A stretch of 64,000 nt of DNA from Halopseudomonas oceani. Lineage in GTDB: Bacteria > Pseudomonadota > Gammaproteobacteria > Pseudomonadales > Pseudomonadaceae. The translations under genes were made by a program, and so were the position numbers. Numbering within the stretch: the first letter of the stretch is position 1; each line of letters opens with the position of its first letter. The notes below the pieces were generated by a model that had not been told where the DNA came from, searched no databases, and saw nothing but the letters and a program-made list of their open reading frames with translations. Shown piece after piece: positions 23,014-59,298 of this stretch. The stretch lies in the NCBI RefSeq assembly GCF_002903165.1, contig NZ_PPSK01000015.1, forward strand, positions 1 through 64,000, written 5' to 3'.

Positions 23014-23017
23014 GGTT

Positions 23018-29364: not shown

Positions 29365-29464
29365 CACAAGCACTGCCTCTTCCTTGTTGCAACGTTGATA
29401 AACACTTCAATGTTCCGGCTACAGCAACTCGTAGAATTGCCGTTTGCCGATACCCTCTTGATTG

Positions 29465-41830: not shown

Positions 41831-44338
41831 TTAAAAATCAAACTCACTGGAGAATGAACGACGAATCGTATAGCGAGTGGCTTTGTACTGAGTGAAATGA
41901 GAGGTACCTTCCACTTGCTCCTCAAGCCGCAGCTCAACCTGCTGATTGTTTACATCGTCAGCCTTGCGGCTGAGCAGTAACCGTATCGACTGCTCGCGCT
42001 CGCGTGGACTTTCAGAGACAAAATCAAAAGTCAGATCGTGCGAGTCAGATATCAGATCGTTATCCAATGTGTACAGCCCAAGCCGTAACCGCCTGGCCTG
42101 TGTCTTCTCAGTGACTGGTTCTGTCTGATAAAGCACCACCGCCACTTGTCCTGTTGTAATGGTTCTGCCGCCACCGCCAATGAACTCAACATCGACCTTT
42201 CCAACGTCGCTTTGACGTTTTTTATTAATTCGCACAACCGGGATCACGACCTCCTGCAGTGTCGCACCGCCATGCACAAATCGACTACCCGAGCCTTTTA
42301 ACCGCAAGCGATTGATCGATTTTGGAATCTGCACCCCTAACGTTCCGCCAAGGCCTAGCTGTTCCGGGGTAAATGACCTGAATCCTGGCTGTTCACGCAG
42401 GCCATGTCCCAGCACAAATCGACGATCACGGTAGAGCACCTCATCTCCGTCAGGCGCACTGCTCAGAAAATCACTTTCTGAGAGAGGACGATGCTGGTAG
42501 ATAAACCCGTGGTCCGCCGTAACTAGCAGATTACTCGCGTTAGCATTGGTGAGTTTCTTGATAAGACGGACCAGCTCAGCCAATGTTTCTTCGGCTGCTG
42601 CAAATACCCGCTCTTCGGTGTCCCGAGTATCTCCGGTCTTGTCGATCAGATTGTGATAGACGTATACCACATCGTTTTCCCTGAGCAACGCACGCGACTC
42701 ATTCTGATTCATGGTCATCAGATCTTTGGCAAGAATCACGGTCGAGCTTGGCACCGCGCTAGCCAGGATCTTGGCGCGATTTGCTGAGCCTTGGGCACTA
42801 AGCCCATCAACCAAGGCGTCTCCACTATCATTTTCGGCTAGCTGCAACACCTGATTAGGTAGCAAAGCCGCCATGCCTAGCTGTGTATAACTAGGAAGCA
42901 TTGACAGCGCTGGCTCCAGGCCGGCCTCAAAGCGATCCTCTTGCCGAATCAGACTCTGCAGTTCTTCAGCAACCTCGTAGCGGAACGCATCCGAGATCAG
43001 GACGCAGACTTTAGTCTTGCGCTCCATAAAGGGCTTTACATAACGGCTGAAGAAATTCCGTTGTAGCATCACCGGCGCAGCTGACCAGGTAGAAGCTGAG
43101 TCAACAAACTGCTGCCAACGATCGTTGAGGCGAGTCAGATAGTTGTTGGTGTACTGGTTCTCAACCTGGTTATTAAGCTCTTCCAGCAAGGATGCTTGGC
43201 CAGATTGACGCGAATGGAAAGTAAATTTCCGATACAGCTGGTCCAGCCTAAACCAGGTTTTGGCGTACTTATCCACGCCATCGGCCAACGAAGACATTTC
43301 CAGCTTCGCCATGTCCAGCGTCTGCAAAAACTGGGAGGCATGACCTAAGGCAAGATACACATCTTCGAAATTAGAGAACCAATGGCTCTGACGTCTTTGG
43401 CGAACAATCTGCGCCACTTCCGCCGAGCTGATGGCCCCCGTCACAATGTCGCGCACCAGCTCGCTCAGAATTTTGCGGTCAATCAGCTCAAAATAATCAA
43501 GCTCTAACAACGCCCGGTAGCCGAGCTTGTGTAAATGATCATCAATCCTGAGTACTTTAGCGCACTCATGCGACAAACGTTCAAAGCTACTCTCGTGGGA
43601 GCGGCTATCCTTCCAGCGTCTAAGCAATACCTGCGCCTCAGCTGACAGGCGAGCTTGGTAGCCGGGATCTGTTCCCATCATAAAGCACGCCTTGAAGAGC
43701 TCAATCACGAAGTCGTGCATACCCGGTTGCTCCGAGACATAGCCGTAGGCACGCTTCATGTGCTCCCAGAGAGTGGCGCCCAAACCGCTTGCGTCGATCA
43801 GTTTGATGCAGCCGCTCTCGGAGTTCGCCAGTTCAGCTAGCAACTCCTCGACAATCACGTCCAGCCGAGGTTCACAGCCCGCACACACTGCAAGCATTTT
43901 GAATCGCAGCTTGTTGTGCGAGTCATCGGGCTCAAGCAGTTTCTGTAACTGCTCACGCCGCTTTGCGGCGGCAAAAAATGCGGAATGTTCCTCGAGGACC
44001 GGGTAGCAATCTGGCCCTAACGCCAGCTCAGCCAACCACAGCGCAACCTGATCGGTACGGAAGGTACTACCGCTGGCCAACTGCACATCAAGCAACCAAT
44101 TATCCAGATATGCAGGCTCCCCCCCCTCTCGGTAAAGCAGAAACTTTTGCTCTGGTTGCTCCCGCAATATGCGGTACTTCACACCGAACTCGTTGTTAAC
44201 CAGCTCGATTTTTTCAACGCCAGGCAGATTCAGAGACTCGAACTCTTCACGAAACTCCAGGCGGTGGTCATACCAAAACACCAGCCGCTGCTTTTCGAAT
44301 AGATTCGCCAGCGCCTGAGAGACTCTTGAACTGCTCAT
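41831..44338 (-). CDS. pglZ: BREX PglZ, alkaline-phosphatase-superfamily protein
   Basis: 835 residues from ATG 44338, overlapping the previous stop by 4 bp. The PglZ domain is recognisable from VCVLISDAFRYEVAEELQ (metal-binding D, nucleophile region) and from LLVTADHGFIYQHRPLSESDF (DH metal ligands). The start MSSSRVSQALANLFEKQRLVFWYD is typical of type 1 PglZ (KRIVFWYD pattern). The C-terminal ~150 residues form a beta-rich domain. PglZ works with PglX in modification and exclusion; the exact reaction is unsettled. Full length for the family. Confidence 0.95.
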   Translation of the reverse strand: MSSSRVSQALANLFEKQRLVFWYDHRLEFREEFESLNLPGVEKIELVNNEFGVKYRILREQPEQKFLLYREGGEPAYLDNWLLDVQLASGSTFRTDQVALWLAELALGPDCYPVLEEHSAFFAAAKRREQLQKLLEPDDSHNKLRFKMLAVCAGCEPRLDVIVEELLAELANSESGCIKLIDASGLGATLWEHMKRAYGYVSEQPGMHDFVIELFKACFMMGTDPGYQARLSAEAQVLLRRWKDSRSHESSFERLSHECAKVLRIDDHLHKLGYRALLELDYFELIDRKILSELVRDIVTGAISSAEVAQIVRQRRQSHWFSNFEDVYLALGHASQFLQTLDMAKLEMSSLADGVDKYAKTWFRLDQLYRKFTFHSRQSGQASLLEELNNQVENQYTNNYLTRLNDRWQQFVDSASTWSAAPVMLQRNFFSRYVKPFMERKTKVCVLISDAFRYEVAEELQSLIRQEDRFEAGLEPALSMLPSYTQLGMAALLPNQVLQLAENDSGDALVDGLSAQGSANRAKILASAVPSSTVILAKDLMTMNQNESRALLRENDVVYVYHNLIDKTGDTRDTEERVFAAAEETLAELVRLIKKLTNANASNLLVTADHGFIYQHRPLSESDFLSSAPDGDEVLYRDRRFVLGHGLREQPGFRSFTPEQLGLGGTLGVQIPKSINRLRLKGSGSRFVHGGATLQEVVIPVVRINKKRQSDVGKVDVEFIGGGGRTITTGQVAVVLYQTEPVTEKTQARRLRLGLYTLDNDLISDSHDLTFDFVSESPREREQSIRLLLSRKADDVNNQQVELRLEEQVEGTSHFTQYKATRYTIRRSFSSEFDF

Positions 44339-46212
44339 GTCTCAACCTCAGCTTCTTCCTCATCATCTAACAACGCCTCCTCAGGTGTTGCCAGTGCATC
44401 ACTCACAACCACATTGTGACGCAGACGCTGCAGAAGAGCCTCACGACGGGCTCCATAAAATCTAAAAAAGTCTTTGAAATCTAAGCTGGCGCTATCATCC
44501 AGCAGCAAGTCAGCCTGCGTCACGCCTGTGCCTTTGTTTGAGATCCACTCATCCAGGGCCATGTCGTTCTTCGAGCGGTTCTGGGATGCATTTAGCAGAT
44601 GTAAGTTAGCAATCGAATTCCAGTTGAGCGGATTTCGGTAGAACGCCATCAAGTCCGCGTCCTCTTTGAGAAAAGCGTGGCCAGAAAGTGAGACCTTGGT
44701 AAAAGCGCTTTTGGGGTGCAGATGATCGATATCCAGCTGCAGATTCTCATTAATTTCCGGGAACAAAAGGCTCAAAACAGAGCGACAGCGAGGATCTCCA
44801 TACTGGATATCCAGCAACCCCCTAAGATACGCCTCATCAAAGCGCATATCCTTGTTGGTTCCTGTGAACGCCTCAATAATCTCCTCAAGAGGGAACGTTT
44901 TTTTCTCAAGGTGCCTTGTGAGCAAGCGCTGCATTCGTGACAGCACACCGTCTGCCTGGCCGCCGAATATACCTCGCAGCAAAACCATGTGCAGCCAACG
45001 CGATAGGGCCAGTCGCTCATCGCGCAGATGGTTCAGATTCGTGATGCTCAAGTAAAGCGGCTGGTCTTTGAAAGACTGTTTATACAGATAGAAGGCCAGC
45101 GGAATCACTGCGTTCTTTGCTCTCAGCGAGTGGTCGTTAAACCCAAGCCTGCGCAACAAAGTGAACGTTGCAACGATGCAGGAGCGGATTTGCTTCCATT
45201 GAGACTGGATGATACTGACCCGGTCAGCATCAAAGTTCTTGACCTTAAACCGGACGTCCGCGTCTGTCAGCATCAAGCACGTCTTCAGAACCCAATCGCG
45301 GCCAATCGAAAACTGCATTTCAGAGCTCTGCCTCACCTCGGCAATCAGCTCGTCTATGTCTTTGCGCGCATCGCCCTCCCAGTTCGCGATGGCGATGGAC
45401 ATCAGCAGGTCCGAAAAAGCCAGAGGTGTACCACCACTGTTGGTGCGGATGAAAACATCAAGGACGTAATCTATGTCCTGGCTTTCTTCGTTGTAAAAGT
45501 GAATAACCTCCGCGCGCCGCACCAGGTAGTACAAACGGTTCAGCGCTTTGATGGCAAAACTGTCGCCAGCAAGGCCCTCCTGCTCCAGGTACGGAAGCAC
45601 AACCTCCAGCAGAATTTGATCATCTGATTTCACTTCAGGGAGAGATAAAACCTTGCCCACCTCAAACCAGTAGGATGTTGCATCACTCTGATACGCAGCA
45701 ACCTGCTTCTCTGTCAGGAAGCGGAAGTCGTAGTGAACCATTGCCTCGTTATCATCGCCGTCCACACCTTTACGCAAGTTCAAATAGAGCCGGCGCGGTG
45801 GAAGCGCCTGGTCGTTACGCGTGTTGGGCCACCAGACTCGGGGCTGCTTGTAGGCATAAGTGCCCTTCAGACCGATATAAATTGAAGTGAGACGCTGCTG
45901 CCCATCAATGACCGCCTTGAAGTCCTTGAAGTCCCCCTTGGTCGCCACATAGTCGTTCGATTCCTTAAATCGTTGGCAATAGTCGGTGAGGAAACTGTAA
46001 AAACGGTACTTGTCCTTGATCTCGGGGCTCGTTACGTCCCAAAACATAAAAGTGTTGATAGGATAATCGCGCATCAGCGAGTCAAACAGCGTACAAATTT
46101 GTTGGGTAGACCAGACAAAATTGCGCTGGATCGCGGGCAACAAAAACGTTCGGTCATCAATATTGCGTATAGCTTGACGAATAGTGATTGCCCGCTCAAA
46201 ACGGCCTGCCAT
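44335..46212 (-). CDS. GmrSD/BrxU-like DUF262-DUF1524 type IV restriction protein
   Basis: 625 residues from ATG 46212, starting 1 bp after the pglX 3' part ends. The N-terminal DUF262 domain contains FLLPAIQRNFVW and the catalytic-type VIDGQQRLTS (about 101-110). The C-terminal region has LDIDHLHPKSAF and NSIANLHLLNASQNRSKND, the His-Me-finger (HNH-like) motif of DUF1524. Both halves of GmrS and GmrD are thus in one chain, as in BrxU of a BREX plasmid, which cuts DNA with modified bases (established for that protein). Location inside the BREX operon fits complementary defence: BREX against unmodified phages, this protein against glucosylated or hydroxymethylated DNA. Confidence 0.88.
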   Translation of the reverse strand: MAGRFERAITIRQAIRNIDDRTFLLPAIQRNFVWSTQQICTLFDSLMRDYPINTFMFWDVTSPEIKDKYRFYSFLTDYCQRFKESNDYVATKGDFKDFKAVIDGQQRLTSIYIGLKGTYAYKQPRVWWPNTRNDQALPPRRLYLNLRKGVDGDDNEAMVHYDFRFLTEKQVAAYQSDATSYWFEVGKVLSLPEVKSDDQILLEVVLPYLEQEGLAGDSFAIKALNRLYYLVRRAEVIHFYNEESQDIDYVLDVFIRTNSGGTPLAFSDLLMSIAIANWEGDARKDIDELIAEVRQSSEMQFSIGRDWVLKTCLMLTDADVRFKVKNFDADRVSIIQSQWKQIRSCIVATFTLLRRLGFNDHSLRAKNAVIPLAFYLYKQSFKDQPLYLSITNLNHLRDERLALSRWLHMVLLRGIFGGQADGVLSRMQRLLTRHLEKKTFPLEEIIEAFTGTNKDMRFDEAYLRGLLDIQYGDPRCRSVLSLLFPEINENLQLDIDHLHPKSAFTKVSLSGHAFLKEDADLMAFYRNPLNWNSIANLHLLNASQNRSKNDMALDEWISNKGTGVTQADLLLDDSASLDFKDFFRFYGARREALLQRLRHNVVVSDALATPEEALLDDEEEAEVET

Positions 46213-46213
46213 A

Positions 46214-47977
46214 TCAGCTTTCCTTGCTCGCTAGCCCGGGGATTTTTTTCAGTGCATCCCCCAGCTTGAGATAATTGACTTTAACACCATCATCCAGATC
46301 CAACTCGAGCTGCTGCGTAGCTAACGGATAGAGCGTGTCACGCTCGTAGTCGTCCAATTCCAGCAGTTGCTTTTTGATGGTCTCGGATTCCTTGCCCGCT
46401 TTGGTTTTTTCTGCCTGACCCGCTGAAGGGTTGATAGCCACCTGTTTCAAGTAGTCTAAGCGTGAGGCAAGCTTTTTACGGAAGTCACGCAGGTAGCTGA
46501 GCACTACGCTGACGGTGTCCGGACGGTAACGGTGTAGGTAGACCAATGCGCTGAAGGTGCCCTTGGGGCTGCTGAACAGCCAGTAGATGGGACGCTTCTT
46601 GTAGCGCTTCACATGGTCGGCATAGAACTCGCCCAGGAAGTAGTCGCGTAGGCTGTAGTTGCGCTTGCCCTTGACGTTGAGCGCCTGCTCGATGAAGGCC
46701 AGGTTGTCTTCGTAATGCGCATCGCCAAAGGCCACACGCAAGAACTGGCGGAAACGCAAGGTGATGTCGTCCGGGAACCAGTCGCCATCCAACAGCGGGA
46801 TCACATTGTCGTCATCGGCCGGGAAGCTGGGCTGTGGCACTTGGCTCAGATAGTCCACCAGCGTTTCACCCTGGTTGGCCAGGATCAGCCCCGGTTTGTC
46901 GAGGCTGTAGCGGCCGAACATGCAGCCCACGGCGTAGCTCACCAGCTCGCGCATGGTGTCGGCCAACAGCATCGTCTCCAACTCCTCCTCGCTCTTGTCA
47001 CCGCCGTAGCGGTAGTGCGGATTGCAGGTGAGCGTGACCTCACTAAGGTCAACCTTCTCATCAAGCTCATCCTGCAGGCCGTAGGCGTCAATAAAGATGC
47101 GATTGTTCTCCTGCTCCAGGAGCTGCATCTTCAGCGTCATCTCGCGCCAGTAAGCGCGGAGCTTCTGGTAGCTGGCCTGGAGCATGGGCTGGCGGTGGTC
47201 GGGGTGCAGCAGAGCGAGTCCGATGAAGTCCCATGAGACCTCGTAAGAATCCCAATCTCGGCGCGAAAGATCAGTTATCGATTCGATGATCTTGGTGACG
47301 TCAACTGATGCATTGGGAAGTGGAATTTTCCCAATATCACCGGGGTTGGCGTTCAGAGTTGGGTTAATTGCCTTACCCAGAACGACGTGCGCCTTCGAGT
47401 TCAAAAGCCCAGCATATAGGCTTGAATCCCCGTCGCAGAACATCGCATTCGACGCGGAACTAAAGAGGAATCCTTTGGGCAGCATTCTTATAGAAAATGC
47501 ACCGCTGGTGATTGACGTCCAAGAAAGGCCAGGCTTGAAGATAAAGTCTAGGTTTAAGTTGACGGCACGGATGCGTCCGCTCTCGTGCTCCTCAGTCTGT
47601 AAACGGTGACCATCATTTTCCCAGTTTACAACGTCATCAAAATTCCCATACCACTTCCTGTATTCACCTCCATTGGCATACGGAAACCATCGAAGGCACG
47701 ACTTAGCCGCCTCAGACCTTGATTGACTGAATCCAATGCACTGTATAGAAACCTCATGCCATGACCGCACAAAAACTGCGTTGAGCCCAGTTGCCATTCC
47801 CTTACGTGTGGAGCAGTCGTTAGAAATGAGGTGTCCTTTTTCAAACGAACCGATAACGGCATCCGACAGCCAATAGGCAACAGGACTCCCTGGAATCTTC
47901 TTGAAGTCCGCTGCCGAAGCCCGAAAAAAGTACTTCTCCATGCCCTGCTCGCGGCCGCTGTTTTGGTGATCACTCAT
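46214..47977 (-). CDS. pglX: PglX, C-terminal half (separate frame)
   Basis: 587 residues from ATG 47977. The protein starts with a short non-homologous lead and enters PglX homology at FFRASAADFKKIPGSPVAYW, the segment that in intact type 1 PglX directly follows the methyltransferase half. It then continues with the target-recognition region (LNAVFVRSWHEV, FPYANGGEYRKWYG, LPKGFLFSSAS) and the conserved C-terminus with RPIYWLFSSPKGTFSALVY. Length plus the N-terminal half gives about 1190 residues, the normal PglX size. The ATG overlaps the stop of the reverse-transcriptase gene (ATGA), so it can be translated as a separate subunit. Whether the two halves reassemble is unknown. Confidence 0.9.
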   Translation of the reverse strand: MSDHQNSGREQGMEKYFFRASAADFKKIPGSPVAYWLSDAVIGSFEKGHLISNDCSTRKGMATGLNAVFVRSWHEVSIQCIGFSQSRSEAAKSCLRWFPYANGGEYRKWYGNFDDVVNWENDGHRLQTEEHESGRIRAVNLNLDFIFKPGLSWTSITSGAFSIRMLPKGFLFSSASNAMFCDGDSSLYAGLLNSKAHVVLGKAINPTLNANPGDIGKIPLPNASVDVTKIIESITDLSRRDWDSYEVSWDFIGLALLHPDHRQPMLQASYQKLRAYWREMTLKMQLLEQENNRIFIDAYGLQDELDEKVDLSEVTLTCNPHYRYGGDKSEEELETMLLADTMRELVSYAVGCMFGRYSLDKPGLILANQGETLVDYLSQVPQPSFPADDDNVIPLLDGDWFPDDITLRFRQFLRVAFGDAHYEDNLAFIEQALNVKGKRNYSLRDYFLGEFYADHVKRYKKRPIYWLFSSPKGTFSALVYLHRYRPDTVSVVLSYLRDFRKKLASRLDYLKQVAINPSAGQAEKTKAGKESETIKKQLLELDDYERDTLYPLATQQLELDLDDGVKVNYLKLGDALKKIPGLASKES

Positions 47978-50900
47978 TCTTTCTCTCCCGCCGGCAATAC
48001 CTTGCGGCCAAAATCAATTTCAAATCCATCCGGCACCGGTTTGAACGGTTTGGCCGGGGAGCGATAGCTGCTCTGGAACTGGCGCAGCGACCGCACGTCA
48101 ATCTCGCCGATCACGCAATAGTCGGTCACACCGCCCTTAACTCGCAGCACATCACGCTCCCAACTGTCTTTTGCGGGGGCGCGGATGCGGCTATCACCGT
48201 ATTGGCGGTCATTGCACTGGATGATGTAGGCGTGCATATCCAGCGCAGCGGACTCCACCAAGGCATTGAAGGTCTCGGTGTCCTGGTTCCACTCAGGCAC
48301 AAACAACGCGTCCACCTTGCCGCGAAGGCCGGCACGATAGCTGATGTTGGTCAGTTCGCTGCAGATCAGCAGGGCAAAACGCAAGTCACCATGCTGCAGA
48401 ATGGGCGGTGTTCGCCACGCCTTGTCAGCTCTCAACTCCAAGCCAGCCAGACGCTGCAGCTCCCGTTCCTCATGCAGGGCTGGGCGCTGTTTGTCCTGCC
48501 GATAGATCATCAACGAAGGGAAGCCCAGGCCATCGTGCGACAGCGCAACCCAAACCTGGTTGCGCACGCGCCCTTTACTGGCGTGCAGGTATTCAATGCC
48601 AGTGATCAGCGAAATGCCGCGCCCCTGAAGCTTGCGCGCAATACGGATGAACCAGTGCGCGGGCAAGGCCAACTCGGGCAGAACTAAATAACGGCTTTCC
48701 CTTGGCTGAGCAATCACGCCATCCAACAGACGGCAAAGGCGTGCGTAACGCTCAGCATCGGGATCGGACATGCGCATGACCGAGGCCGTCCAGCTCGCCA
48801 TCTGCGTTTTCCAGCTGGAGACGGCGATCCCGTACTTGGGCTGGGGCTGGCCATCCGGGATCTGTAGCACGCCGTGCTTGTCGAAAGCGGGCGCTGCATC
48901 ACCAAGCTCGAAGCCGCGTACAGCGAGGACGACAGCTTGCATGGCCCCGTGCGCCGCAGCATCGTAGGCCGCCTTGTTCAGGATAAACAGCTCCGGCAGG
49001 TTGTAAGGCCGGGTGGCAAACAGCAGCCCGTGCGGCAAACCTTTGAAGCGGATCCACTTGGCAAGCACTTGGCTGCCGTCGAGCACGGTCTCTGGCAGCA
49101 AATCAGCCGCATGGGTGCAGGATGCTGCGGCCTTCTTCGCAGGGATGCCACGCTGGGCCACCATTTCCTCGGGCAAGCCAAGGAAGCGGAACGGCATATG
49201 CGCCAGATCGAATGAGAACAGCCTTGCTTGCTGAGTTTGGAAGCCCTTGATTGGGAACAAATACCAATTCAGGAAAGCATCGATATTCGCCGGTGCGTAG
49301 CCCTCCATATGTGCCAGCCAGGCCGCCTTACCGTCTTTCGATAGCCGGGGCGGGAAGGCTGCGCTGATGCTCTCGCGTACCGTGCTGAAGAGCTGCTTTT
49401 GCCAGCGATCGAGCATTTCGCTGTGGCTTGGTTTGTCTTCTGCGGGGCACGCCTTAATGCTGAGCTCGCAACCTTGTGACACTTGCGTACACAGTTGCTC
49501 CAGCCCCCGCAAGATCTGTCGAAGGGCTGAGAAGTCTTCGCATGCCGTAGCGAGGCGAATAACCCGAGGCAGGTAGAGCGACAGATCAAAAAACTGTGGC
49601 AGCACCAGCACGTGCTGAACAAAGGCACGGAAGAATGCCTGCCGATGCTCGCGCCACGCGTCTGGCTGCAGGTCACGTTCGTAGGCTTCAAAGTCGCGCA
49701 GCTTGATGGCAAAGCCCGCGCGGCGCATGGTCAGGGCATCCGCCTTGCGCAGGTTGTCGGCGGCCTCACCGTCGCTTTGCGTGGCGGCTAGCAGATCGGT
49801 AGCCACGTGGCTGGCTGCGCGCGGCAAACGGGGCATGGCGCGCCATTCGCTGGCGCGTTGGTGGATCTGGTGGGCGATGGCATCCACCAGGGTTTTACCC
49901 GGCTCGCCCGCCAACATGAACACCTTGTTCTTGGCGTTGGCAAAGCGGATCTGGCTGTCGCTCAAGTAGCTGGGCTGAAAACCGATCTGCTTATGCTCCT
50001 CGCTCGGCACCCACGCCAGCATGCCGCTGGAGCGGGCGAACAGCCACTCCCACAGCTCAGCCGTGGAACGGAAGCTGGCACCGTTCTCCATGACCAGGAG
50101 GATGTCATCTACATAGCGGCCGTAGTACAGCGGCGCAATCTGCTGCTCGACGACGCGATCCAGCTCAATCAGCGCAACGTTCGCCACCACGGCTGAAGCT
50201 GGCAGACCTACGGGCAGGCCCCTCTTCAGCGGCGTGGCTGCCGCCCATGCCTGCAGCGCCTGAATGAAGAGGCGATGCAGCTTAGATTGAGCGGGAGACA
50301 GTTCCAGCCCCAGCACATCCGTAACGAAGGCTGGATTGAGCATGAAGCCAGGATTCAGCTCGTGATAGAAAGAGCTGACATCCGCCGTGAGCGCTACGAT
50401 CTTCTTGTCTGCGTCCAACGCAGTACGCATGGCCTCGATACCCTGGTCACGCCAGTCGCGGAAAGGCTTCAGGTACGGCTGAAAAGAGCCCAGCGAGAAC
50501 GCATTGATGCCTTTCCCATCTTGCGTGCGACGCAATCGGTTGCCATAGGCACAGTCGGTCAACTGGGCATCGAACAGATGGCCAACCTCCAACATCCAGA
50601 GGGTGGACAGCACATGAAAGTCCAGGCTGCACTGGGCCATCACTCGAAATTCGGCTTTGGGCTTTTGGGGATGTTCGCCTTCAGCCAGAAGGCCACAGGC
50701 ATGGGCCCACTCCTCGGCCGGAGATGAAAAGATCAGGCCATTGCCATTCTGCTTGCGATACTCATCCCAGCAAGACATGTCCACCGACTTGGTGGCCAGA
50801 GTCCAGCCGCCGATAAACTCGGGTTGAATGACCCAGGACTCATCATCGCTAAGCAGCTTCGCGAGCAAAGCAGTCAGGTTGGCATGGAGTGCGTCCTCGT

Positions 50901-50994
50901 AGTTCGCAATCGCGTCCAGCGATGCATGAGACGAGTAGTACAGGTCCACCTTGGCTTTGCGGTAAGCCAGGCCTAAGGCTTGGAGGGAAGTCAT
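47974..50994 (-). CDS. DRT type 1 (UG1) reverse transcriptase-nitrilase fusion
   Basis: 1006 residues from ATG 50994, overlapping the previous stop (ATGA). The RT domain has IVALTADVSSFYHEL (first catalytic D, about 205), GLPVGLPASAVVAN (about 259-272) and YGRYVDDILLVM (catalytic DD, about 296-297). The last ~250 residues are nitrilase-like: YLVLPELALPAHWF (E of the triad), and FALLICSELTNISYR (C of the triad). RT fused to a nitrilase is the signature of the UG1 class, DRT1, a described antiphage RT family. Both active sites look intact. It sits inside the split pglX, between a Shedu-like gene and the pglX 3' half. Confidence 0.9.
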   Translation of the reverse strand: MTSLQALGLAYRKAKVDLYYSSHASLDAIANYEDALHANLTALLAKLLSDDESWVIQPEFIGGWTLATKSVDMSCWDEYRKQNGNGLIFSSPAEEWAHACGLLAEGEHPQKPKAEFRVMAQCSLDFHVLSTLWMLEVGHLFDAQLTDCAYGNRLRRTQDGKGINAFSLGSFQPYLKPFRDWRDQGIEAMRTALDADKKIVALTADVSSFYHELNPGFMLNPAFVTDVLGLELSPAQSKLHRLFIQALQAWAAATPLKRGLPVGLPASAVVANVALIELDRVVEQQIAPLYYGRYVDDILLVMENGASFRSTAELWEWLFARSSGMLAWVPSEEHKQIGFQPSYLSDSQIRFANAKNKVFMLAGEPGKTLVDAIAHQIHQRASEWRAMPRLPRAASHVATDLLAATQSDGEAADNLRKADALTMRRAGFAIKLRDFEAYERDLQPDAWREHRQAFFRAFVQHVLVLPQFFDLSLYLPRVIRLATACEDFSALRQILRGLEQLCTQVSQGCELSIKACPAEDKPSHSEMLDRWQKQLFSTVRESISAAFPPRLSKDGKAAWLAHMEGYAPANIDAFLNWYLFPIKGFQTQQARLFSFDLAHMPFRFLGLPEEMVAQRGIPAKKAAASCTHAADLLPETVLDGSQVLAKWIRFKGLPHGLLFATRPYNLPELFILNKAAYDAAAHGAMQAVVLAVRGFELGDAAPAFDKHGVLQIPDGQPQPKYGIAVSSWKTQMASWTASVMRMSDPDAERYARLCRLLDGVIAQPRESRYLVLPELALPAHWFIRIARKLQGRGISLITGIEYLHASKGRVRNQVWVALSHDGLGFPSLMIYRQDKQRPALHEERELQRLAGLELRADKAWRTPPILQHGDLRFALLICSELTNISYRAGLRGKVDALFVPEWNQDTETFNALVESAALDMHAYIIQCNDRQYGDSRIRAPAKDSWERDVLRVKGGVTDYCVIGEIDVRSLRQFQSSYRSPAKPFKPVPDGFEIDFGRKVLPAGEKE

Positions 50995-52235
50995 GCGCCC
51001 CTCCGGTTTGGTGTCACAATCCGTGCTGAATTCTGACGTCTCATCATTTCAATGATGTTCCCCACCCGGCGCAATAAGTCGTCATAAGTCATGATGTCGA
51101 GCATGTTGGCGTATTTACGCCGGATGATTTCAAAGTCAAAACGCTGCTGCCCCACAAAATCGTTATCACGCCCGAGCAGGATCATTGCCTTGGGATTGGT
51201 GATCTTGAGCTCAATCCAAGTTGGCAACTCACTTTTCCGCTTGTTGTAGATTTCCTTCTCACCCGCGTGCCCCCATTTACTCAGGTGGAATAGATATTTT
51301 TCCGCCTGCATGACAGATCCGGCCAACTCTTTCTTCGGTGTGTGGCTGTCACGGTATGTGCTGCGGGACACCATTGCATTCGGAAAGGGCTTTTTGACTT
51401 CGATGATGTCGATGTTGCCATTCGCATCGACCAGCATCAGGTCGATGTAACGGTCGGTGGTTTTGGAAGCATTGGTGTAGAAGTCCTTGATATGGACATT
51501 CTCAAGTACCGCAACATACTTGGGGAAAACAAACAACAGCAAGCCCAATATCTTGGCCTGCCAGTCCTTCTCAGAGTACGCATCCACCTGCTTCAGCATG
51601 GACTCCAATTCTGCATGAACATACTCAAACTTTTGCAGCTCAAAGTTGGAAACAATGCTTTCACGGGACGCAGCAGGGAGCTTCTTCTTGCGCTTCAGGT
51701 ACTGATTCAGCTGGCCTTCGGCATCCGAGATCGTTCCAAAATAGTCTTTGAGAACCCGCACAATACGGGCTCGGGCGTAATGGGTGAGCTCGGTGCTGGT
51801 CGGAAAGGTTTTTAGAAGCTGCTCAAAATCCGCCAACGGGATGGCGCTTTCGTTGTCACCGCCAACGACGATAGGTTCATCAATCAATTCATCGATTCTT
51901 CGGAACACCGAAATATCGCGCTGCGCAATGAATGTGCTCGGTACCAGCGTCATCCCTCTGTCGAGCAGAAGGTCGTGCTTAAGGCCAAGCACGTCACCAT
52001 TGATCTTGTAGTAGCCGTCCTCCAATAGGCCGAGCAAAAAGATGCGTTCGCTGTCGTCCCTCTCTTCAGAGGATGCAGACTGGGTCAGCAGATCTGCACC
52101 AGTGAAGGTGAACGTGCGGCGCAGAGTCACTTCGCCGTCTTGCCGCAGCTTCTCATCGAGCCAACGCGCATCGTTGAAGCGATCAGGCTGATACGTCAGT
52201 AGCAGTTGGTTCTCTTCGGCGAAAATACTGATCAC
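50991..52235 (-). CDS. Shedu-like DUF4263 nuclease
   Basis: 414 residues from GTG 52235, overlapping the preceding stop (TAGTG). The C-terminal half has the DUF4263/PD-(D/E)xK arrangement: SEKDWQAKILGLLLFVFPKY (E222), DRYIDLMLVDANG (D265) and DIIEVKKP (E279 and K281). Shedu (SduA) proteins carry this nuclease domain and protect against phage as single genes (established). The N-terminal ~200 residues would be the regulatory domain. The stop overlaps the start of the DRT1 gene, so the two form a pair. Catalytic residues appear intact. Confidence 0.85.
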   Translation of the reverse strand: MISIFAEENQLLLTYQPDRFNDARWLDEKLRQDGEVTLRRTFTFTGADLLTQSASSEERDDSERIFLLGLLEDGYYKINGDVLGLKHDLLLDRGMTLVPSTFIAQRDISVFRRIDELIDEPIVVGGDNESAIPLADFEQLLKTFPTSTELTHYARARIVRVLKDYFGTISDAEGQLNQYLKRKKKLPAASRESIVSNFELQKFEYVHAELESMLKQVDAYSEKDWQAKILGLLLFVFPKYVAVLENVHIKDFYTNASKTTDRYIDLMLVDANGNIDIIEVKKPFPNAMVSRSTYRDSHTPKKELAGSVMQAEKYLFHLSKWGHAGEKEIYNKRKSELPTWIELKITNPKAMILLGRDNDFVGQQRFDFEIIRRKYANMLDIMTYDDLLRRVGNIIEMMRRQNSARIVTPNRRGA

Positions 52236-52402
52236 TAATCAACCTCACGCGTGTCCTTTGGCCCGCCCTGAATCAGAAAGGCCTTGAACAGCTGGATCTT
52301 GCTGGCGCCGTTCTCGCTGATGACGATGTTGATGCCCGGCGTGAAGTCGATGGCCAGATCGGTGAAGGCAATGAAGTTCTTGAGCTGCAGGTTGGTGATC
52401 AT
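52235..52402 (-). pseudogene. Truncated AAA ATPase stub with degenerate Walker A
   Basis: 55 codons from ATG 52402, whose first bases overlap the stop of the pglX 5' half. It begins NLQLKNFIAFTDLAIDF and continues INIVISENGASKIQLFKAF, the N-terminal strand pair and P-loop region of SMC/OLD-like AAA proteins, in which one expects GENGTGKTHLLKA. Here the lysine-serine/threonine of the P-loop is changed (NGASKIQ), and nothing follows: a TAG ends it, overlapping the Shedu-like start. It is either the relic of a full ATPase gene or a short coupling ORF. Confidence 0.7.
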
Positions 52403-54207
52403 GCAACCCTGCCTTGAACGATGGCCTTGGCCATCATTTCCATCTTTTCCGCTTCCGAATTGCCATCCACCAGGCGCATGTAAGCGCCCCGGTAATCGGG
52501 CTTGTGGGCGTTTTCCAGCACAAAGGCTGTGGTCGAAACAACTTCACCACCGATACTGTCGAAGGCCCGTGCACCCAAGTGCGCCATGGATAGGATGGTG
52601 TGCTGATTCAGGATGCGGCTACGCAAAGACTCGAAGGAGGAAAGGAACATCCAGCTCTGCATGGTGATCATGGCAACAGCTCCTCCCTTCACCGTCAGAT
52701 CCAAGTTGCGCTCGATGAACATCGCAAACAGGTCGGATTTGCTGCTCGGGAACTTCTCCTTGGCCCAAGTGCTCAAGCGAGGGTTCATGCCCTTACTGCC
52801 CATGTAAGGAGGGTTAGCCACGACTACTGCGTAGCGCGGGCTCAAGGCATCAGCCATGCGCAGAACAGTCAGGACTTTCTTGTGCGTCTCGGCCAGGAAC
52901 AGGTTGCTGCTCATGTCCTTGCTCTCCAGCGTGGCCAGGACATCTGCCACGTTGGCGACCTTGGGCACAATCAGCGAGCCGAAGTTGTCGGCTTCACTGA
53001 ACTGCTCCAGCGTTTCGCGAAGGCCGTAGGTGAACAAGTCACGGCCGACAAAGCTCATATACTCGTCCAGCTCTTCGCTGCTGAAGCTCACCTTTTCCAG
53101 CACGCAGATGTTCGGCCTGACGCCTTTATTGAAGAAGCGCCGTTGACGGGTACGGGCTTTCATGGTGAGCGCGAACGCAGCCAACTCACCAGCACGCTCA
53201 TCCAGCTCGATGCCGAAGAGGTTGTGGGTGAGGATCTTTTCCGGGATCTCAGCCGAGTCATAGCCCTCTTCTTCGTACATCGCATACAGCAGGTCGAAGG
53301 CGTAGGTGAGCATGTGACCGGAGCCGCACGCCGGATCGCAGACTTTTATGTCCTCTGGTCCGGTGATCTTGAGGAAATCACTCTCTGGCTTCTCTGGCGG
53401 GATGTAGTACTCCATTTGCTCTTCTAGCCGTGAGTTGGGCCGGTTGAGCAGCCAGAGTCGGCCCAGCGAGTTGTCCACCAGATAGCGCACAATCCAGTGC
53501 GGGGTGAACAGCTGAGTGGCCGCTGGGATATTCTCTGGAGTGATCTTCTGATTCTTCTTCAACCCCTCGAACACAGCGTCCTTCTTCTCGGAGATGTAGA
53601 ACTGGTAGAGCCAGCCGATCACCTCGACATCTTCGCAAGCGTCGGGCGTCATGGCCTCGCGCGTGTAGGCCAAGATGGAATTACCCGAAAGCAAATCGTC
53701 GGGCATCAGAAGTTCGGTGTAGTCGTCGATGCGCTCGAACAGAAAGGGCATCGATTGGTGCCAAGCGTTGCACGCAGCAACTACCAACAGGCGGTAGGCT
53801 TCGCCTTGCGAGTCGTTGCTTGGTGCGCGGCCCGCTAGCAGATCCAGGACCTTCTGACGAATCTGGCTCGGGACCATCTCTTCGTCGATATGCCCCATCT
53901 TGGCTTCAGCCAGGATCTCAGGTTGAAACTGCCCCTCAGCTGGAGACACTACGCCGATGCGGGTGTAGCGATTTACGTCCATGAAGCGCAGGGCACAGAA
54001 GCGGTTAAACCAGGTGTAGGCAACACGCTCTTCCACATACTCGCGACCGGAGTTGCTGATCAGCTTTTCCAACTCAGCCACTACCTGGGCTCTCTCACGA
54101 CGAGCAGCACTCTGCGGAGCCAACACCACATCCAACTTGCCACTCACCTGATCAAGCAAGGTGCGACGCGCGTATTGGGCAAATTTCTTGAGTTTGCTGG
54201 TATCCAT
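52399..54207 (-). CDS. pglX: PglX, N-terminal methyltransferase half (separate frame)
   Basis: About 602 residues from ATG 54207 (a TTG precedes it). The N6-adenine methyltransferase core is intact: SAM-binding CDPACGSGHM (about 291-300) and catalytic NPPY in VVVANPPYMGS (about 466-469). The start YARRTLLDQV and FTPHWIVRYLVDNSLGRLWL are typical of type 1 PglX. The product stops right after GNSEAEKMEMM and AKAIVQGRVA, where an intact protein would continue into the C-terminal half found at 46214-47977. Without that half, target recognition should be lost, so BREX methylation and exclusion depend on whether the pieces work in trans. It follows brxC by 76 bp. Confidence 0.92.
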   Translation of the reverse strand: MDTSKLKKFAQYARRTLLDQVSGKLDVVLAPQSAARRERAQVVAELEKLISNSGREYVEERVAYTWFNRFCALRFMDVNRYTRIGVVSPAEGQFQPEILAEAKMGHIDEEMVPSQIRQKVLDLLAGRAPSNDSQGEAYRLLVVAACNAWHQSMPFLFERIDDYTELLMPDDLLSGNSILAYTREAMTPDACEDVEVIGWLYQFYISEKKDAVFEGLKKNQKITPENIPAATQLFTPHWIVRYLVDNSLGRLWLLNRPNSRLEEQMEYYIPPEKPESDFLKITGPEDIKVCDPACGSGHMLTYAFDLLYAMYEEEGYDSAEIPEKILTHNLFGIELDERAGELAAFALTMKARTRQRRFFNKGVRPNICVLEKVSFSSEELDEYMSFVGRDLFTYGLRETLEQFSEADNFGSLIVPKVANVADVLATLESKDMSSNLFLAETHKKVLTVLRMADALSPRYAVVVANPPYMGSKGMNPRLSTWAKEKFPSSKSDLFAMFIERNLDLTVKGGAVAMITMQSWMFLSSFESLRSRILNQHTILSMAHLGARAFDSIGGEVVSTTAFVLENAHKPDYRGAYMRLVDGNSEAEKMEMMAKAIVQGRVA

Positions 54208-54286: not shown

Positions 54287-57200
54287 TCAGATCTGCACTC
54301 GGTTGCCGGCCTGGATTTCCTTCAGCCAGGCTTCACGTTGCTTATCCAAGTACTCGTCAAGCTCCGTTTCACTGGTCAGCCAGGGCTTTGCGTAGCCGAC
54401 TTTGATGTGACGAGACTGCACAATGCGCGTCTCCGCCACATCCCTCACGGGCACATGTAGTGGTCCGTCGGTGCTTTCAGGCTGATCGGATGGTTTCGGT
54501 GGCTCCACCTGAGGCGATTTCGGACGAGCCAGTTGCTCCAGCTTGATTAGCAGTTGGGGATACTGCTGTTCCTCGAAACGATTACGCTGGTCGCGAATAA
54601 CCGCAATCAGCTTCTGACCTTTCAATTGTTGCTTAGCTTGTAAGAAGGGGGCCGAGAGCAGCTCTTTGTGGTCTTCAGCCAGCGCTGGGTATCCTTCAGC
54701 TCCTTGGAGACGCTGTTCCAGCTCATCAAGTAATTGTTCACTGGCGCTCTGTTCGTTTGCCAGCTGACTGGCAATCGCCTGTTGAAGCGCTTCAAGCTGC
54801 TGCCTGACCTGCTGCAGCTGATTACCCTGCCAAGGCTTGGCATCTGCCAGCACATCCAGAATTACGCTAACTTCAGCGGAGTCGACGTAAGCAAAATTGT
54901 CCTGTTGCTCCTGAACAAGCAGGCGGGCTTGATCGTATATCCCTTTCTGTGGGCTTTTCATAAAGCGCCGCACAGGGTCGATGATCTGCTCCTTAGCGTC
55001 CAACAGCTGGTCTTCTGCCCGGGAAAGGTCTGTCAGGAACCACGCAGGACTCTGGGCGGCGACTTCCTTGAGTGTGGCCAACACGCCGTCCAGGACGCCG
55101 AGGAAGGGGTACTGCACCTTCTGCCCATGAAGCTCAGCCAGGTCAATCTCCATCTCCTTAATTGCGTCGATGGTTTCCCGGGCTAGCGCGCGGGCCTCAT
55201 TGCTGCTTGCCGGCTCGCCGACGAAATCAGCATAAAAGTCCTTGAGTGCCCGTACTTGGGACGCACTGAACTCAATCTGCGGCTCAAGTACCAAGGTCGC
55301 ATGGGCATTGGTATTGCGCAGGCTGCGCTCCAGTAAATCCCCTTCCAGCGGATTGCTATCCTGACGCACCTCTACTTTCCCACGCGCAAAAAGAAGTGCA
55401 AGGTTGCAGAGGATAGCCGCGTAGTACCAGCCGTAACTTTTGCGCTCAAAACGCTCCAGTAGGCTTTTCACCGTTGTCCGAACACCGCTACGGGCGTTGG
55501 TCTGGATAAACGCCAATAGCTCCTGCTCCGGCTCACTCAGGCTGGTGGCATCATTACCAAGCAGCCCTTCCTGCCCCTGGCGCAGGTACTTACCAATATC
55601 GGCCTCGCTGAACGGGACATCCCGCAACATACGCAAGTTCGGATAGGTGGTTTCGATCAGCTGGAAAAAACCTTTCAAAACACGAGTTTGGCCATCGGTA
55701 TTAGGAACATCGATATCGGCGGCATTGATAATCAGTTGCGCACCGGCCAACAGCTGCTTCGCACGCTCCTGAAGATCCGCCGAGCGCTCGGTATTCTGAA
55801 AGCTTTTGGCATCGAGGATGCGCTTGACCGACTCCTGCGGCGTGCTGCTGTTCTGACGGATGTAGGTCTCAGTGCGCTTGTACATCGTGAGGTCTTGCAT
55901 AAATCGCGCATCAGCCGGCAAAACAACACGAAGCTCATCACGTCCCATGCTTTGCATACGCTGCACGGTGAGGTTATCGAAGTTGTCACTCAGCGGTGTT
56001 ACAACGTGGATGGCAAGCTCTTGCTCACGACTTAGTACCTTATCGTCCATCTTGCGTGTATAAGCGTAATCCTGACCGTTTTCATAGCGGATTTTGCGCT
56101 GCTTGATGACACCGTCAAACAGTAACTTCTCCAGCTCATCAAGGATGTCACCGGTCTCAGCCTCGGTGTTTTTGATTTCTTCCTCGATATCTTTTTCTTC
56201 GTCCGTCAGGTACTCATACAGCTCGCCATTACGCTGGATGTACGTCTGCTGCTCCAGCAGGTTGAGCGCCGCTTCGAGCTTCTTGCGCTGGGCAGGTACA
56301 TCTTCACCAAAGCCCTCCAGCATCAGCACACCAAGATTGCGTAAGGTGGCTTTAAATTCTTTCACGTATTTGACCAAGAAAAGCGTCTTGAGCACGCGAA
56401 CCGCATACTCATCACCCAAGTGGTGCTCCGCTGTACTGATTGCGCTTTGGATGGCGCTTTTCAATGCGCCGCGAATACCCTCGAACATCCGATCGAAGGT
56501 GGCCAGTTGACCAACTGGTTCGTTTTCAATGGCGATCGCGACTTCGCGAAAAACACCCAGCATTGATCGCTCACCGACTGAATTGGCCTTGCCTTCAAAC
56601 CCGTTATGCGCAGAGATTCCGCGGATAGCAGCCTGGAACAACGGAAACTGGTAAGGAACAAATGGATAGCAGTAGGTAAAGTGCGCAACATCCCGAAAGT
56701 TCTGATAGGTCTGGGCACCATCCGAGAACTCGAAAAGGGTTTTGAAATTGTTCACCTGCTGTTCGTATACAGCCCCCAGAATGTCTGCACCAGTCTGGTT
56801 TTTGGTCAGTAGCCTGCGCTGAATCACCTCGGCCACATCCGCACTGGTTAACTTCAGGCGATTGGAGAATCGAGCCTGGATCTTGGTGAAGTCATTGCTC
56901 TGCTGCTTGCTAAGGTCACCAAGCACAGAGTTCATATCCTCTTGAGCTGTGACGATGATCCACGCCCGCCCGTTGCACTTGGTCGCGAGGCTTTCAGCAA
57001 CCGTCTGCAGGTTGGTCATCAGTTTGGTGTTTTCTGCAATGTACTGCCCAACTTCGTCGACAAAGAAATTCAGACGGAAATTGGCTGGCTGCTTGTCCAA
57101 CCACGCCTTCACCTGGTTACCGAAATCCTCAATCGAGACGCTGTATTGCGTGCGATATTTATCAAGGATGCCTTTGGCTATGGCGGGATCTTCACCCGTG

Positions 57201-57829
57201 ATCTGCGCATAAGCCTTGGCAATGCTGCCGGACTCCAACAACGCCTGCTCGCGCCCCCGCTCCCAAGGCTTGTTGGCGATAGCCTGATAAGCCTCCTTGA
57301 AAGTCTGAAACTGTTCGCGGCTGTCCAGATCACGCTCAAACTGGGCGATGTAGCCTTGCTTGCCGAAATAGCCACACATTTCGTTGAAGACTTTTACGAA
57401 CACCGAGAGCAAGGCATCGATCTGCGTTTTGCTGATGATGTCGGCCTTCTGATCGATATTGAAGAGAATGCTTTTCGACGGAATGGCAACGGCCTTCTTC
57501 AGCTTGCTGCGTAGCAGCTCGTCATCCTCATCGATCTTGGGTAGGAAAATACCCAGTGCCGAAGAACCATCAATGGTGCGATTTTCCAGAAGCAAGGCCA
57601 GCATCTTCAGAAGGTGCGACTTACCCGACCCAAAAAAACCAGAAACCCAGACACCGTTTGCACCGTGATAGTTGGTGTATGCATCAAGGAAAGCCTCAAG
57701 CCGCTTGGCGACCTCGTCGGTGAGCACATACTCACTGAGCTCGTTATACAGACTCGCTTCATCATCAGCCTTGATCACCCCCTCAATGGGGCGACTGACC
57801 GGGTTCAGGAAAATACCGTTGAGTTCCAT
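54287..57829 (-). CDS. brxC: BREX BrxC, large P-loop ATPase
   Basis: 1180 residues from ATG 57829. Walker A SGFFGSGKSHLLKML lies at about 63-77, after the typical opening IFLNPVSRPIEGVIKADDE. FFVDEVGQYIAENTKLM gives a Walker B-like/ORC-type segment near residue 265. A long helical and coiled-coil region follows to the C-terminus. BrxC is required for both methylation and phage exclusion in type 1 BREX (established), and is thought to be an AAA+/ORC-like DNA-associated ATPase. Size is normal. It is 11 bp downstream of brxB. Confidence 0.95.
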   Translation of the reverse strand: MELNGIFLNPVSRPIEGVIKADDEASLYNELSEYVLTDEVAKRLEAFLDAYTNYHGANGVWVSGFFGSGKSHLLKMLALLLENRTIDGSSALGIFLPKIDEDDELLRSKLKKAVAIPSKSILFNIDQKADIISKTQIDALLSVFVKVFNEMCGYFGKQGYIAQFERDLDSREQFQTFKEAYQAIANKPWERGREQALLESGSIAKAYAQITGEDPAIAKGILDKYRTQYSVSIEDFGNQVKAWLDKQPANFRLNFFVDEVGQYIAENTKLMTNLQTVAESLATKCNGRAWIIVTAQEDMNSVLGDLSKQQSNDFTKIQARFSNRLKLTSADVAEVIQRRLLTKNQTGADILGAVYEQQVNNFKTLFEFSDGAQTYQNFRDVAHFTYCYPFVPYQFPLFQAAIRGISAHNGFEGKANSVGERSMLGVFREVAIAIENEPVGQLATFDRMFEGIRGALKSAIQSAISTAEHHLGDEYAVRVLKTLFLVKYVKEFKATLRNLGVLMLEGFGEDVPAQRKKLEAALNLLEQQTYIQRNGELYEYLTDEEKDIEEEIKNTEAETGDILDELEKLLFDGVIKQRKIRYENGQDYAYTRKMDDKVLSREQELAIHVVTPLSDNFDNLTVQRMQSMGRDELRVVLPADARFMQDLTMYKRTETYIRQNSSTPQESVKRILDAKSFQNTERSADLQERAKQLLAGAQLIINAADIDVPNTDGQTRVLKGFFQLIETTYPNLRMLRDVPFSEADIGKYLRQGQEGLLGNDATSLSEPEQELLAFIQTNARSGVRTTVKSLLERFERKSYGWYYAAILCNLALLFARGKVEVRQDSNPLEGDLLERSLRNTNAHATLVLEPQIEFSASQVRALKDFYADFVGEPASSNEARALARETIDAIKEMEIDLAELHGQKVQYPFLGVLDGVLATLKEVAAQSPAWFLTDLSRAEDQLLDAKEQIIDPVRRFMKSPQKGIYDQARLLVQEQQDNFAYVDSAEVSVILDVLADAKPWQGNQLQQVRQQLEALQQAIASQLANEQSASEQLLDELEQRLQGAEGYPALAEDHKELLSAPFLQAKQQLKGQKLIAVIRDQRNRFEEQQYPQLLIKLEQLARPKSPQVEPPKPSDQPESTDGPLHVPVRDVAETRIVQSRHIKVGYAKPWLTSETELDEYLDKQREAWLKEIQAGNRVQI

Positions 57830-57840
57830 CTACTGCTTCC

Positions 57841-58506
57841 TCAAGCCTGAGTCTCAAAAATGTTGAATGCACGGTAGTATTTGTCGTCGTGCAACAAGCC
57901 AAATAGTTCCAACGAAGCCCCCTGCTCCAGCGAATACCGGTACTCACCGGGGAAGAACATGACCGTCGGTTTTGACTTGGCAGTGCTCTGCAGGTTGTTC
58001 AGCACATTGTGCGAGCGAATGTAAGGGAAGACCTCTCCGATGCCGGAGAGAAACAAAACATCGTAATCTGCTGCGGCGATACGCTCGCCAATGGCGGGGA
58101 TCAGATACTCCTCAATGCCCAGGACATTTTGCAACGTTTCCAGCAACTGATCTTTCTCTGCCTCGGGTTCAACAGCTAGAAGGTCGTCCCAGAGGCTGGT
58201 CTCGTCGCTACCACCCTCTCGGGCCTTGAGCAGCTCGATGGATAGGTCGTACAGGTTAACTTCAAGCACCTGAACACCTCGCCCATGCAGGCAAGGAACA
58301 CTCATATTCGCCAGGCGGGTCACCAGTTGACGACGGACACGATCCATCTCAAAGGCTTCTGCTGCCTTAAATTCGCATATGTAGAATGGCAGATCATTAT
58401 TCAGCCCTCTCATCTCAAGAAAGCGCTGACCACTGATTACGCCGAGCAAGTGATCGAAGCGAACCGCCATTGGCTGTTCGCTGATTTTCCGGTTTATTGA
58501 AGCCAA
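57841..58506 (-). CDS. brxB: BREX BrxB (DUF1788)
   Basis: 221 residues from TTG 58506, which overlaps the end of brxA by 13 bp; an ATG at 58470 would give a 209-residue product but cuts into the conserved N-terminus. The patterns FDHLLGVISGQRFLEMRGL, DLPFYICEF and the C-terminal KPTVMFFPGEYRYSLEQG are characteristic of BrxB. It is a small protein needed for type 1 BREX function, with no known enzymatic activity. Genes on both sides are close or overlapping, consistent with one transcript. Confidence 0.92.
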   Translation of the reverse strand: MASINRKISEQPMAVRFDHLLGVISGQRFLEMRGLNNDLPFYICEFKAAEAFEMDRVRRQLVTRLANMSVPCLHGRGVQVLEVNLYDLSIELLKAREGGSDETSLWDDLLAVEPEAEKDQLLETLQNVLGIEEYLIPAIGERIAAADYDVLFLSGIGEVFPYIRSHNVLNNLQSTAKSKPTVMFFPGEYRYSLEQGASLELFGLLHDDKYYRAFNIFETQA

Positions 58507-59105: not shown

Positions 59106-59298
59106 CCGTGGCCTCCGGCGTATCATCGCTGGCACCACCGGCCTTAACCCAAGCGTCGACCTCTGACCTCTGAAACTTCCATAAACGTCCCACCTTGTGC
59201 GCTGGCATGCGCCGCTTCGCGATCCATGCATAGACGGTATCCTTGCTCACACCCAAGTGCTCGCCGATGTCCTCCACACTCAACCACCGATCAGTCAT
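59098..59298 (-). CDS. Excisionase-type (HTH_17) DNA-binding protein
   Basis: 66 residues from ATG 59298, with GGAAAA just upstream. The whole protein is a MerR-like excisionase fold: WLSVEDIGEHLGVSKDTVY, AWIAKRRMPAHKVGRLWKF, SEVDAWV. Such proteins often precede restriction or BREX operons and are presumed regulators (family knowledge). It is the first gene of the BREX operon and overlaps brxA, so it may take part in controlling that promoter, particularly since the WYL regulator nearby is broken. Confidence 0.88.
   Translation of the reverse strand: MTDRWLSVEDIGEHLGVSKDTVYAWIAKRRMPAHKVGRLWKFQRSEVDAWVKAGGASDDTPEATDV

Follow-up and report, generated by a model that had tools for sequence, protein, structure and literature searches.

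A split pglX gene with an exchangeable defence cargo, probably encoding a two-subunit PglX, in a type 1 BREX operon of Halopseudomonas oceani

The split pglX gene and its operon

The window analysed here is a stretch of 64,000 nucleotides, positions 1 to 64,000 of contig NZ_PPSK01000015.1 in the 64-contig draft assembly of Halopseudomonas oceani, and on its minus strand lies a type 1 bacteriophage exclusion (BREX) operon in which pglX is present as two frames, pglX-N and pglX-C, 4.4 kb apart with other defence genes in between. Split pglX is a recurring architecture and not a one-off insertion, and the two halves most probably make up a working two-subunit PglX, resembling HsdM and HsdS, around an exchangeable cargo slot within one operon. 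This reading is based on sequence comparison and on the analogy to type I restriction-modification enzymes, and loss of BREX is unlikely.

Along the direction of transcription the gene order is brxA, brxB, brxC, pglX-N, ATPase stub, sduA, reverse transcriptase (RT)-nitrilase gene, pglX-C, a GmrSD-type gene, pglZ and brxL, and all six core genes of type 1 BREX, with pglX as two parts, are found on this strand by Pfam and/or PADLOC profile scans (Table 1). The ATG of pglX-N is at position 54207. An earlier note on this DNA had described halves of 602 and 587 residues, the 4.4-kb gap and three intervening frames joined by stop/start overlaps of 1 to 4 bp, all of which is seen in the sequence: three junctions, pglX-N/stub, sduA/RT and RT/pglX-C, read ATGA with an overlap of 4 bp, the stub/sduA junction reads TAGTG with an overlap of 1 bp, and GGGAG lies upstream of the pglX-C ATG. 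The Shedu nuclease named in the note holds, its C-terminal nuclease domain matching PF14082 at 5e-35. The RT, which had been called DRT1, belongs instead to the UG5-nitrilase class, since the match to RT_UG5-nitrilase (PDLC03780) has 1043 bits and spans residues 2–1005, with the YxDD motif present as YVDD, against 90 bits for Drt1a, and the AAA stub can be narrowed down to the start of a HEC-02A ATPase. The stub is not a complete HEC-02 system, with 43 of 381 residues matched, a degenerate P-loop (SENGASKI, compared with GENGTGKT) and no HEC-02B match found in the slot, and it is the remnant of a former HEC-02A cargo at the slot edge. Scans for promoters and terminators gave no signal above that of shuffled sequences.

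Position of the cut

pglX-N aligns to residues 70–638 of the Salmonella PglX (8c45) and pglX-C to residues 642–1217; the latter has no Pfam match and corresponds to positions 621–1173 of the PADLOC model PDLC02521. According to the available text of PMC11341690, Salmonella PglX has two domains joined by a hinge at 654–659, and the 36 distinct split loci, the window included, are cut at nearly one position, just before this hinge. The hinge region of many intact relatives resembles ...EAVKNPDCGWFYRASAADFKKIPG...; the N half of the split loci stops a few residues before the EAVKNPDCGWFYRASAADFKKIPG-like point (...AKAIAQGRAA in the group of the window), and the C half opens with a new, short head, after which comes a sequence resembling ...EKYFFRASAADFKKIPG. 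No PglX domain is lost by the split, and the motifs DPACGSG and NPPY are kept, but the domains are distributed over two frames 4.4 kb apart and not joined in one polypeptide. In the predicted fold of pglX-C the recognition region is confident, with block means of 74–93 in the predicted local distance difference test (pLDDT).

The last ~100 residues of pglX-N are of differing types in six loci of our set (L012, L015, L016, L056, L060 and L062). Some of these tail types are also present in intact pglX, which suggests that recombination may have taken place inside the N half near its end.

Occurrence of split pglX

Protein searches that admitted 0.55–1.75 times the query length, so that full-length PglX was excluded, gave at least 7985 relatives for the N half and at least 7965 for the C half, numbers that may include fragments of full-length PglX. 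Among the 120 N-half matches listed, the first being the window's own, lengths range over 590–629 residues with 111 of exactly 602, and the 120 C-half matches listed have 512–756 residues. PADLOC already contains N-only and C-only PglX profiles (PDLC02525 and PDLC02516).

The locus set consists of the best 80 of 250 genome loci by N-half similarity, loci from family and class searches, and the window. After removal of duplicate, broken or cut loci it holds 36 split (window included) and 38 intact distinct loci, which is not a population frequency, the sample being chosen by N-half similarity. Removed as duplicates were L095 and L082 (the same locus as L004), L097 (L012), L043 (N half identical to that of L042) and L001 (the window). 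L092 and L098 are one locus whose N frame ends early at 565 codons and looks decayed, in ten loci the frame extends past the end of the contig or of the fetched stretch (L033, L051, L054, L069, L070, L085 and L088–L091), and L019 and L035 have adjacent halves with the frame broken elsewhere. Six loci on the other strand stand outside the scored counts; by open frame, L083 and L084 are split (at the same places as L096 and L097) and L086, L087, L093 and L094 are intact. In the family of the window 10 of 398 genomes have a match at E<=1e-100, four of them, the window included, with a split-length frame, and a class-wide search added little (5 of 369 genomes, including the window's own). Record titles place the split loci in Pseudomonadaceae, several Burkholderiales families, Chlorobiaceae and others, many being metagenome bins, and single split assemblies are labelled Kiritimatiellae, Actinomycetes, Melainabacteria and Sericytochromatia.

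On a tree of the N half (76 rows, including the duplicate or decayed L082, L092 and L043) the window sits in an all-split group of 16 rows, or 15 distinct loci, with a Shimodaira-Hasegawa-like approximate likelihood ratio of 98. The split state needs eight changes on this tree, at least three of them on strong branches. A single split clade is rejected by the approximately unbiased test (p 0.006), although recombination in the N half may mislead the tree, and the split has therefore been made more than once or has spread by recombination. The proposal that pglX was split here by this particular nested cassette does not stand, because the split is common to the 16-row group and to other lineages and the cassette varies by locus.

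The cargo slot between the halves

In the 36 split loci, which include six where the contig ends before the C half is reached, 18 arrangements of slot contents are recognised. Two loci show no recognised cargo at half coverage, and both are among these six. The HEC-02 ATPase-nuclease is carried by 13 loci, the UG5-nitrilase RT by 11, SIR2-HerA by 7, a Schlafen AlbA_2 protein by 5, a second ATPase type by 4, YhcG (PDC-S02) by 4, KilA-N by 3, Shedu by 2 and Fic by one. On the 35 split rows of the N-half tree, the RT (10 carriers) requires nine changes, SIR2-HerA (7 carriers) six and Schlafen (5 carriers) five; HEC-02 is more stable, with 12 carriers and only four changes. RT and SIR2-HerA are never found together in the 36 loci, a result that with 11 and 7 carriers is expected by chance about 6 times in 100.

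At the N edge of the slot, 28 of the 36 loci have a pglX-N stop that overlaps the following start, with five kinds of first cargo. At the C edge, 22 of the 30 loci in which the C half is present have a pglX-C start that overlaps the final cargo frame, the starts being those inferred by homology. Leftover pieces of cargo are present in several slots: the HEC-02A start in the window, ends of RT genes in L015, L017 and L020, a HerA end in L010, parts of Schlafen in L018, and, in L031, a weakly matching end of Fic (36% identity). In the literature searched, which included the available parts of PMC12629846, PMC8565338 and PMC12988326, no account of a cargo slot between the halves of pglX was found.

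Some slot proteins have no Pfam or PADLOC match. The 544-residue product of L015:10476-12110, between a YhcG nuclease and an RT remnant, is a candidate new defence protein, and the 189-residue product of L002:13200-13769, which accompanies the second ATPase type and has relatives in L031 and L062, is a candidate effector. In L060 and L032 (Chlorobiaceae) the first gene of the slot begins with about 12 residues that look alike by eye (MSDILNKLHDQP and MSDFLKNLLTQP), this gene being YhcG in one locus but Schlafen in the second, as though everything except the start region had been replaced.

Recombination of pglX and cargo, and the other slots

Between the window and its nearest relative L002, divergence at fourfold sites in steps of 50 codons is 0.37–0.69 in brxC (0.22 in the last step) and 0.33–0.78 in pglZ, compared with 0–0.38 in pglX-N and 0–0.44 in the RT gene, so pglX and part of the cargo recombined into a different BREX backbone. 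In pglX-C the divergence is 0–0.26 at residues 250–500 and reaches 0.69 just after 500. L002, L012, L096 and L003 have similar backbones (brxC fourfold divergence 0.15–0.26) and different cargo. The cargo and the recognition domain do not always move together, as the window and L096 share the RT at 97% and differ in the recognition region. Recombination of pglX is not special to split loci, since intact loci show mosaicism too.

Cargo is also found at the borders between genes, scored here for gaps larger than 500 bp. The brxC/pglX gap holds cargo in 29 of 35 intact loci against 8 of 32 split loci, and the pglX/pglZ gap in 23 of 37 against 17 of 25. The brxC/pglX contrast has a Fisher value of 4.4e-6 on 66 tree rows, yet there are only three independent pairs on well-supported branches and phylogenetic support was not found. 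In a HEC-02A tree of 34 rows the inner-slot copies form a 12-row clade among outer-slot copies, with L017 apart, and two changes of slot are forced by strong branches, presumably in the direction from outer to inner slot. Intact pglX with two genes before it is found on the plasmids pLM6 of Methylomonas koyamae and pTomMM15c of Sphingobium.

Do the halves work together

Both halves are under purifying selection. The ratio of nonsynonymous to synonymous substitution rates (dN/dS) between the window and L002 is 0.06 for the N half and 0.26 for the C half, and against L003, L005, L096, L012, L006 and L011 it is 0.14–0.20 for the C half and 0.06–0.09 for the N half, except for 0.23–0.24 against L096 and L012, whose N tail differs; several dS values are near saturation, and those ratios are rough. 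The other genes compared give 0.08–0.09 for the RT, 0.11 for SduA (one pair), 0.04–0.07 for BrxC and 0.03–0.09 for PglZ.

The identity of the N half is correlated with that of the late part of the C half, which is highly conserved, with r=0.92 in the 20 split loci with all genes and 0.81 in 32 intact loci. In the split loci the correlation with BrxC is lower for both, 0.72 for the N half and 0.83 for the late C half. The target-recognition region is hypervariable, with a mean identity of 38% and r=0.10 with the N half (permutation p 0.15). This combination is the pattern expected of co-evolving modification and specificity subunits with a changing motif. The window genome has one N-half match (E<=1e-3) and one C-half match (E<=1e-10), and the genomes of three relatives likewise have one of each.

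The earlier note had left open whether a split PglX is functional with several defences on one operon or BREX is knocked out, and the purifying selection, the co-variation and the wide occurrence of the split favour the former and speak against the latter. Two findings that could have overturned it did not appear: no second pglX was found elsewhere in the genome, each half giving a single match, and the halves, with the tight co-variation of the N half and the late C half, do not behave as two different PglX lineages.

Several points weigh against a working two-subunit enzyme. The overlaps are missing in 8 of 36 loci at the N edge and in 8 of 30 at the C edge, and stop/start overlaps are common in operons generally. 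Beyond the recognition region the predicted fold of pglX-C is mostly below 70 pLDDT (65 overall), and the global template modelling score of 0.35 against PglX is poor. Intact pglX is equally mosaic, for example in L038 with L040, and to this come the roughness of the dN/dS values and the higher N-half values noted for two relatives. According to the available text of PMC11341690, expression of the Salmonella PglX C-terminal domain by itself did not succeed, and a free C subunit may therefore depend on its partner. In the part of PMC9716671 that is available, two truncated pglX genes that together make a full one are interpreted as a truncation.

Of the other explanations, the one that survives best is that the halves act apart, the N half methylating under the guidance of some other factor and the C half binding DNA in partnership with the cargo or with a different BREX protein. 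The distance of 4.4 kb between the genes, the separate start of the C half and the strong conservation of its late part, which could contact other proteins, would fit, but the N half follows the late C half (r=0.92) more closely than either follows BrxC, each of the four genomes checked has one N and one C half, and the cargo changes while both halves remain, making this alternative unlikely. Still less probable is a knock-out of BREX, in which an insertion destroyed pglX and expression of Shedu, the RT and the GmrSD-type enzyme is the only use left for the operon. In favour of it, the three solved PglX sequences that were found each consist of a single chain, and a split pglX was taken as truncated in cyanobacterial assemblies (PMC9716671, available text). 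Against this, dN/dS of both halves is well below 1 and the N half retains its motifs, co-variation between the halves is as tight as in fused PglX, the place of the cut hardly varies, pglX-C carries a start of its own and a ribosome-binding-like site, and the other five core genes are all in the window. An assembly or annotation artefact separating one gene, conceivable for a draft of 64 contigs, has a negligible probability and is in effect refuted by independent assemblies, with 35 further distinct loci showing a split of this kind and N-half protein clusters coming from contigs of up to 7.25 Mb.

Proposed mechanism

Type 1 BREX is characterised by phage exclusion and by methylation of adenine at N6 in an asymmetric 6-bp motif. 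HsdM and HsdS are separate modification and specificity subunits that assemble. By analogy, pglX-N would be the methyltransferase subunit and pglX-C the target-recognition subunit of a widespread type 1 BREX variant, and the two halves most likely reassemble into one modifying enzyme in the same fashion. The stop/start overlaps should tie the cargo to both halves by translational coupling on a single transcript, which might thus express BREX together with the Shedu, RT and GmrSD layers. The window cargo comprises Shedu and the UG5-nitrilase RT, with the GmrSD-type enzyme in a second slot before pglZ. Cargo is probably swapped by recombination that leaves old fragments at the slot edges, and the stub may persist because its start and stop overlaps join pglX-N to sduA.

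A further proposal, doubtful when all its parts are taken together, is that PglX is here a true two-subunit enzyme split more than once at the same hinge, that the gap is a docking position which holds cargo by translation between the halves, that the cargo serves both as an effector layer and as a check on PglX, and that cargo and recognition domain are exchanged separately. If so, the amount of specificity subunit would fall when the cargo is lost, a phage able to disable PglX would be confronted with the cargo all the same, and recombination through the conserved N half and the late C half would let a strain change its motif and its backup weapon within one operon.

Comparison with known systems

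The operon shares its six core genes with type 1 BREX systems that have a single-chain PglX/BrxX (8c45 of Salmonella, 9ewz of E. coli), to which the halves align end to end, and cargo at the borders between genes is seen in intact type 1 loci as well; unlike in these, PglX of the window consists of two polypeptides, and the gap separating their genes serves as a cargo slot of its own. In the BREX operon of pEFER, as given in the available text of PMC8565348, a GmrSD-type enzyme (brxU) is nested as a complementary defence as well, but between brxC and pglX, whereas the GmrSD-type gene of the window lies between pglX-C and pglZ with more cargo between the halves. Auxiliary or backup effectors in or beside BREX loci, namely Shedu-type nucleases, GmrSD, OLD-ABC pairs and Schlafen RNases, are covered in the available part of PMC12839542, where BrxX is described as one protein; the words 'split', 'reverse transcriptase' and 'nitrilase' were not found in a search of its main text. 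Matches to HEC-02, HEC-05 and PDC-S02 place the cargo of the window and of the slot among the PADLOC HEC and PDC candidates for defences embedded in other systems, which in the sources as available lie between genes of a system and not, as here, between two halves of one core protein. Other defences are nested in type I restriction-modification operons too, with DarTG2 between hsdS and hsdR (PMC12255303, available text); the proteins of the window are in contrast halves of PglX, the rest of the operon is BREX, and no HsdR is found among the ten operon proteins scanned with Pfam, the rest of the genome not having been searched for it. The pglX split of PMC9716671 is of the same kind, but is taken there to limit BREX function, and cargo between the pieces is not mentioned in the available text.

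An apparently broken gene thus becomes a recurring architecture, and BREX systems of this kind would be wrongly taken for dead by any pipeline in which a short pglX counts as a pseudogene. With the BREX methyltransferase in two natural parts, modification and recognition should be easier to test separately. The slot may also guide the discovery of defence genes, as anything between pglX halves is a candidate.

Genes of the operon and other genes in the window

Table 1. Genes of the split-pglX BREX operon in the window, in the order of transcription.
Gene or product	Position	Strand	Evidence
brxA	58494..59231	-	PF08849 5.7e-50; PDLC02443
brxB	57841..58506	-	PF08747 3.9e-38
brxC, ATPase, P-loop GFFGSGKS	54287..57829	-	PDLC02479 1773 bits
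pglX-N, 602 aa, N-terminal bundle and N6-adenine methyltransferase domain	52399..54207	-	PglX models, Eco57I/N6_Mtase domains; DPACGSG and NPPY
Stub, 55 aa, N-terminal remnant of HEC-02A ATPase	52235..52402	-	70% identity over 43 residues
sduA, Shedu nuclease, 414 aa	50991..52235	-	PF14082 5e-35; PDLC00388 556 bits; EVKKP stretch in nuclease domain
Reverse transcriptase UG5-nitrilase, 1006 aa	47974..50994	-	PDLC03780 1043 bits; PF00078 3e-8; YVDD at 294
pglX-C, 587 aa, target-recognition domain, spacer and C-terminal region	46214..47977	-	C-terminal part of PADLOC PglX models
GmrSD-type protein (HEC-05, BrxU-like), pglX/pglZ slot	44335..46212	-	PF03235 7.4e-31; PDLC04151 701 bits; DGQQR
pglZ	41831..44338	-	PF08665 3.8e-62; PDLC02547 1071 bits
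brxL, phospholipase-D-like C-terminal region	39726..41819	-	PF13337, PF20442, PF16565; PDLC02508 1207 bits

Upstream of brxA, at 59979-63997 on the minus strand, there is a zacC-like frame (1040 bits, PADLOC) and beside it a zacB-like frame of which only the second half of the PADLOC model is matched. Both are oriented as the BREX operon and probably belong to an Azaca-type system. Another minus-strand region, 20009-29373, encodes a 1321-residue AAA_11/AAA_12 helicase with MkoA as its best PADLOC match (350 bits), and after it a PIN-domain protein, a product that neither Pfam nor PADLOC matches and a Cdc48-type AAA protein, with some of the ends overlapping, and is possibly another defence operon. 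At 14116-17873, also on the minus strand, the frame of a calcineurin-like phosphoesterase (370 residues) overlaps by 4 bp with that of the SMC-like ATPase after it (882 residues), the two being a Rad50/Mre11-like pair.

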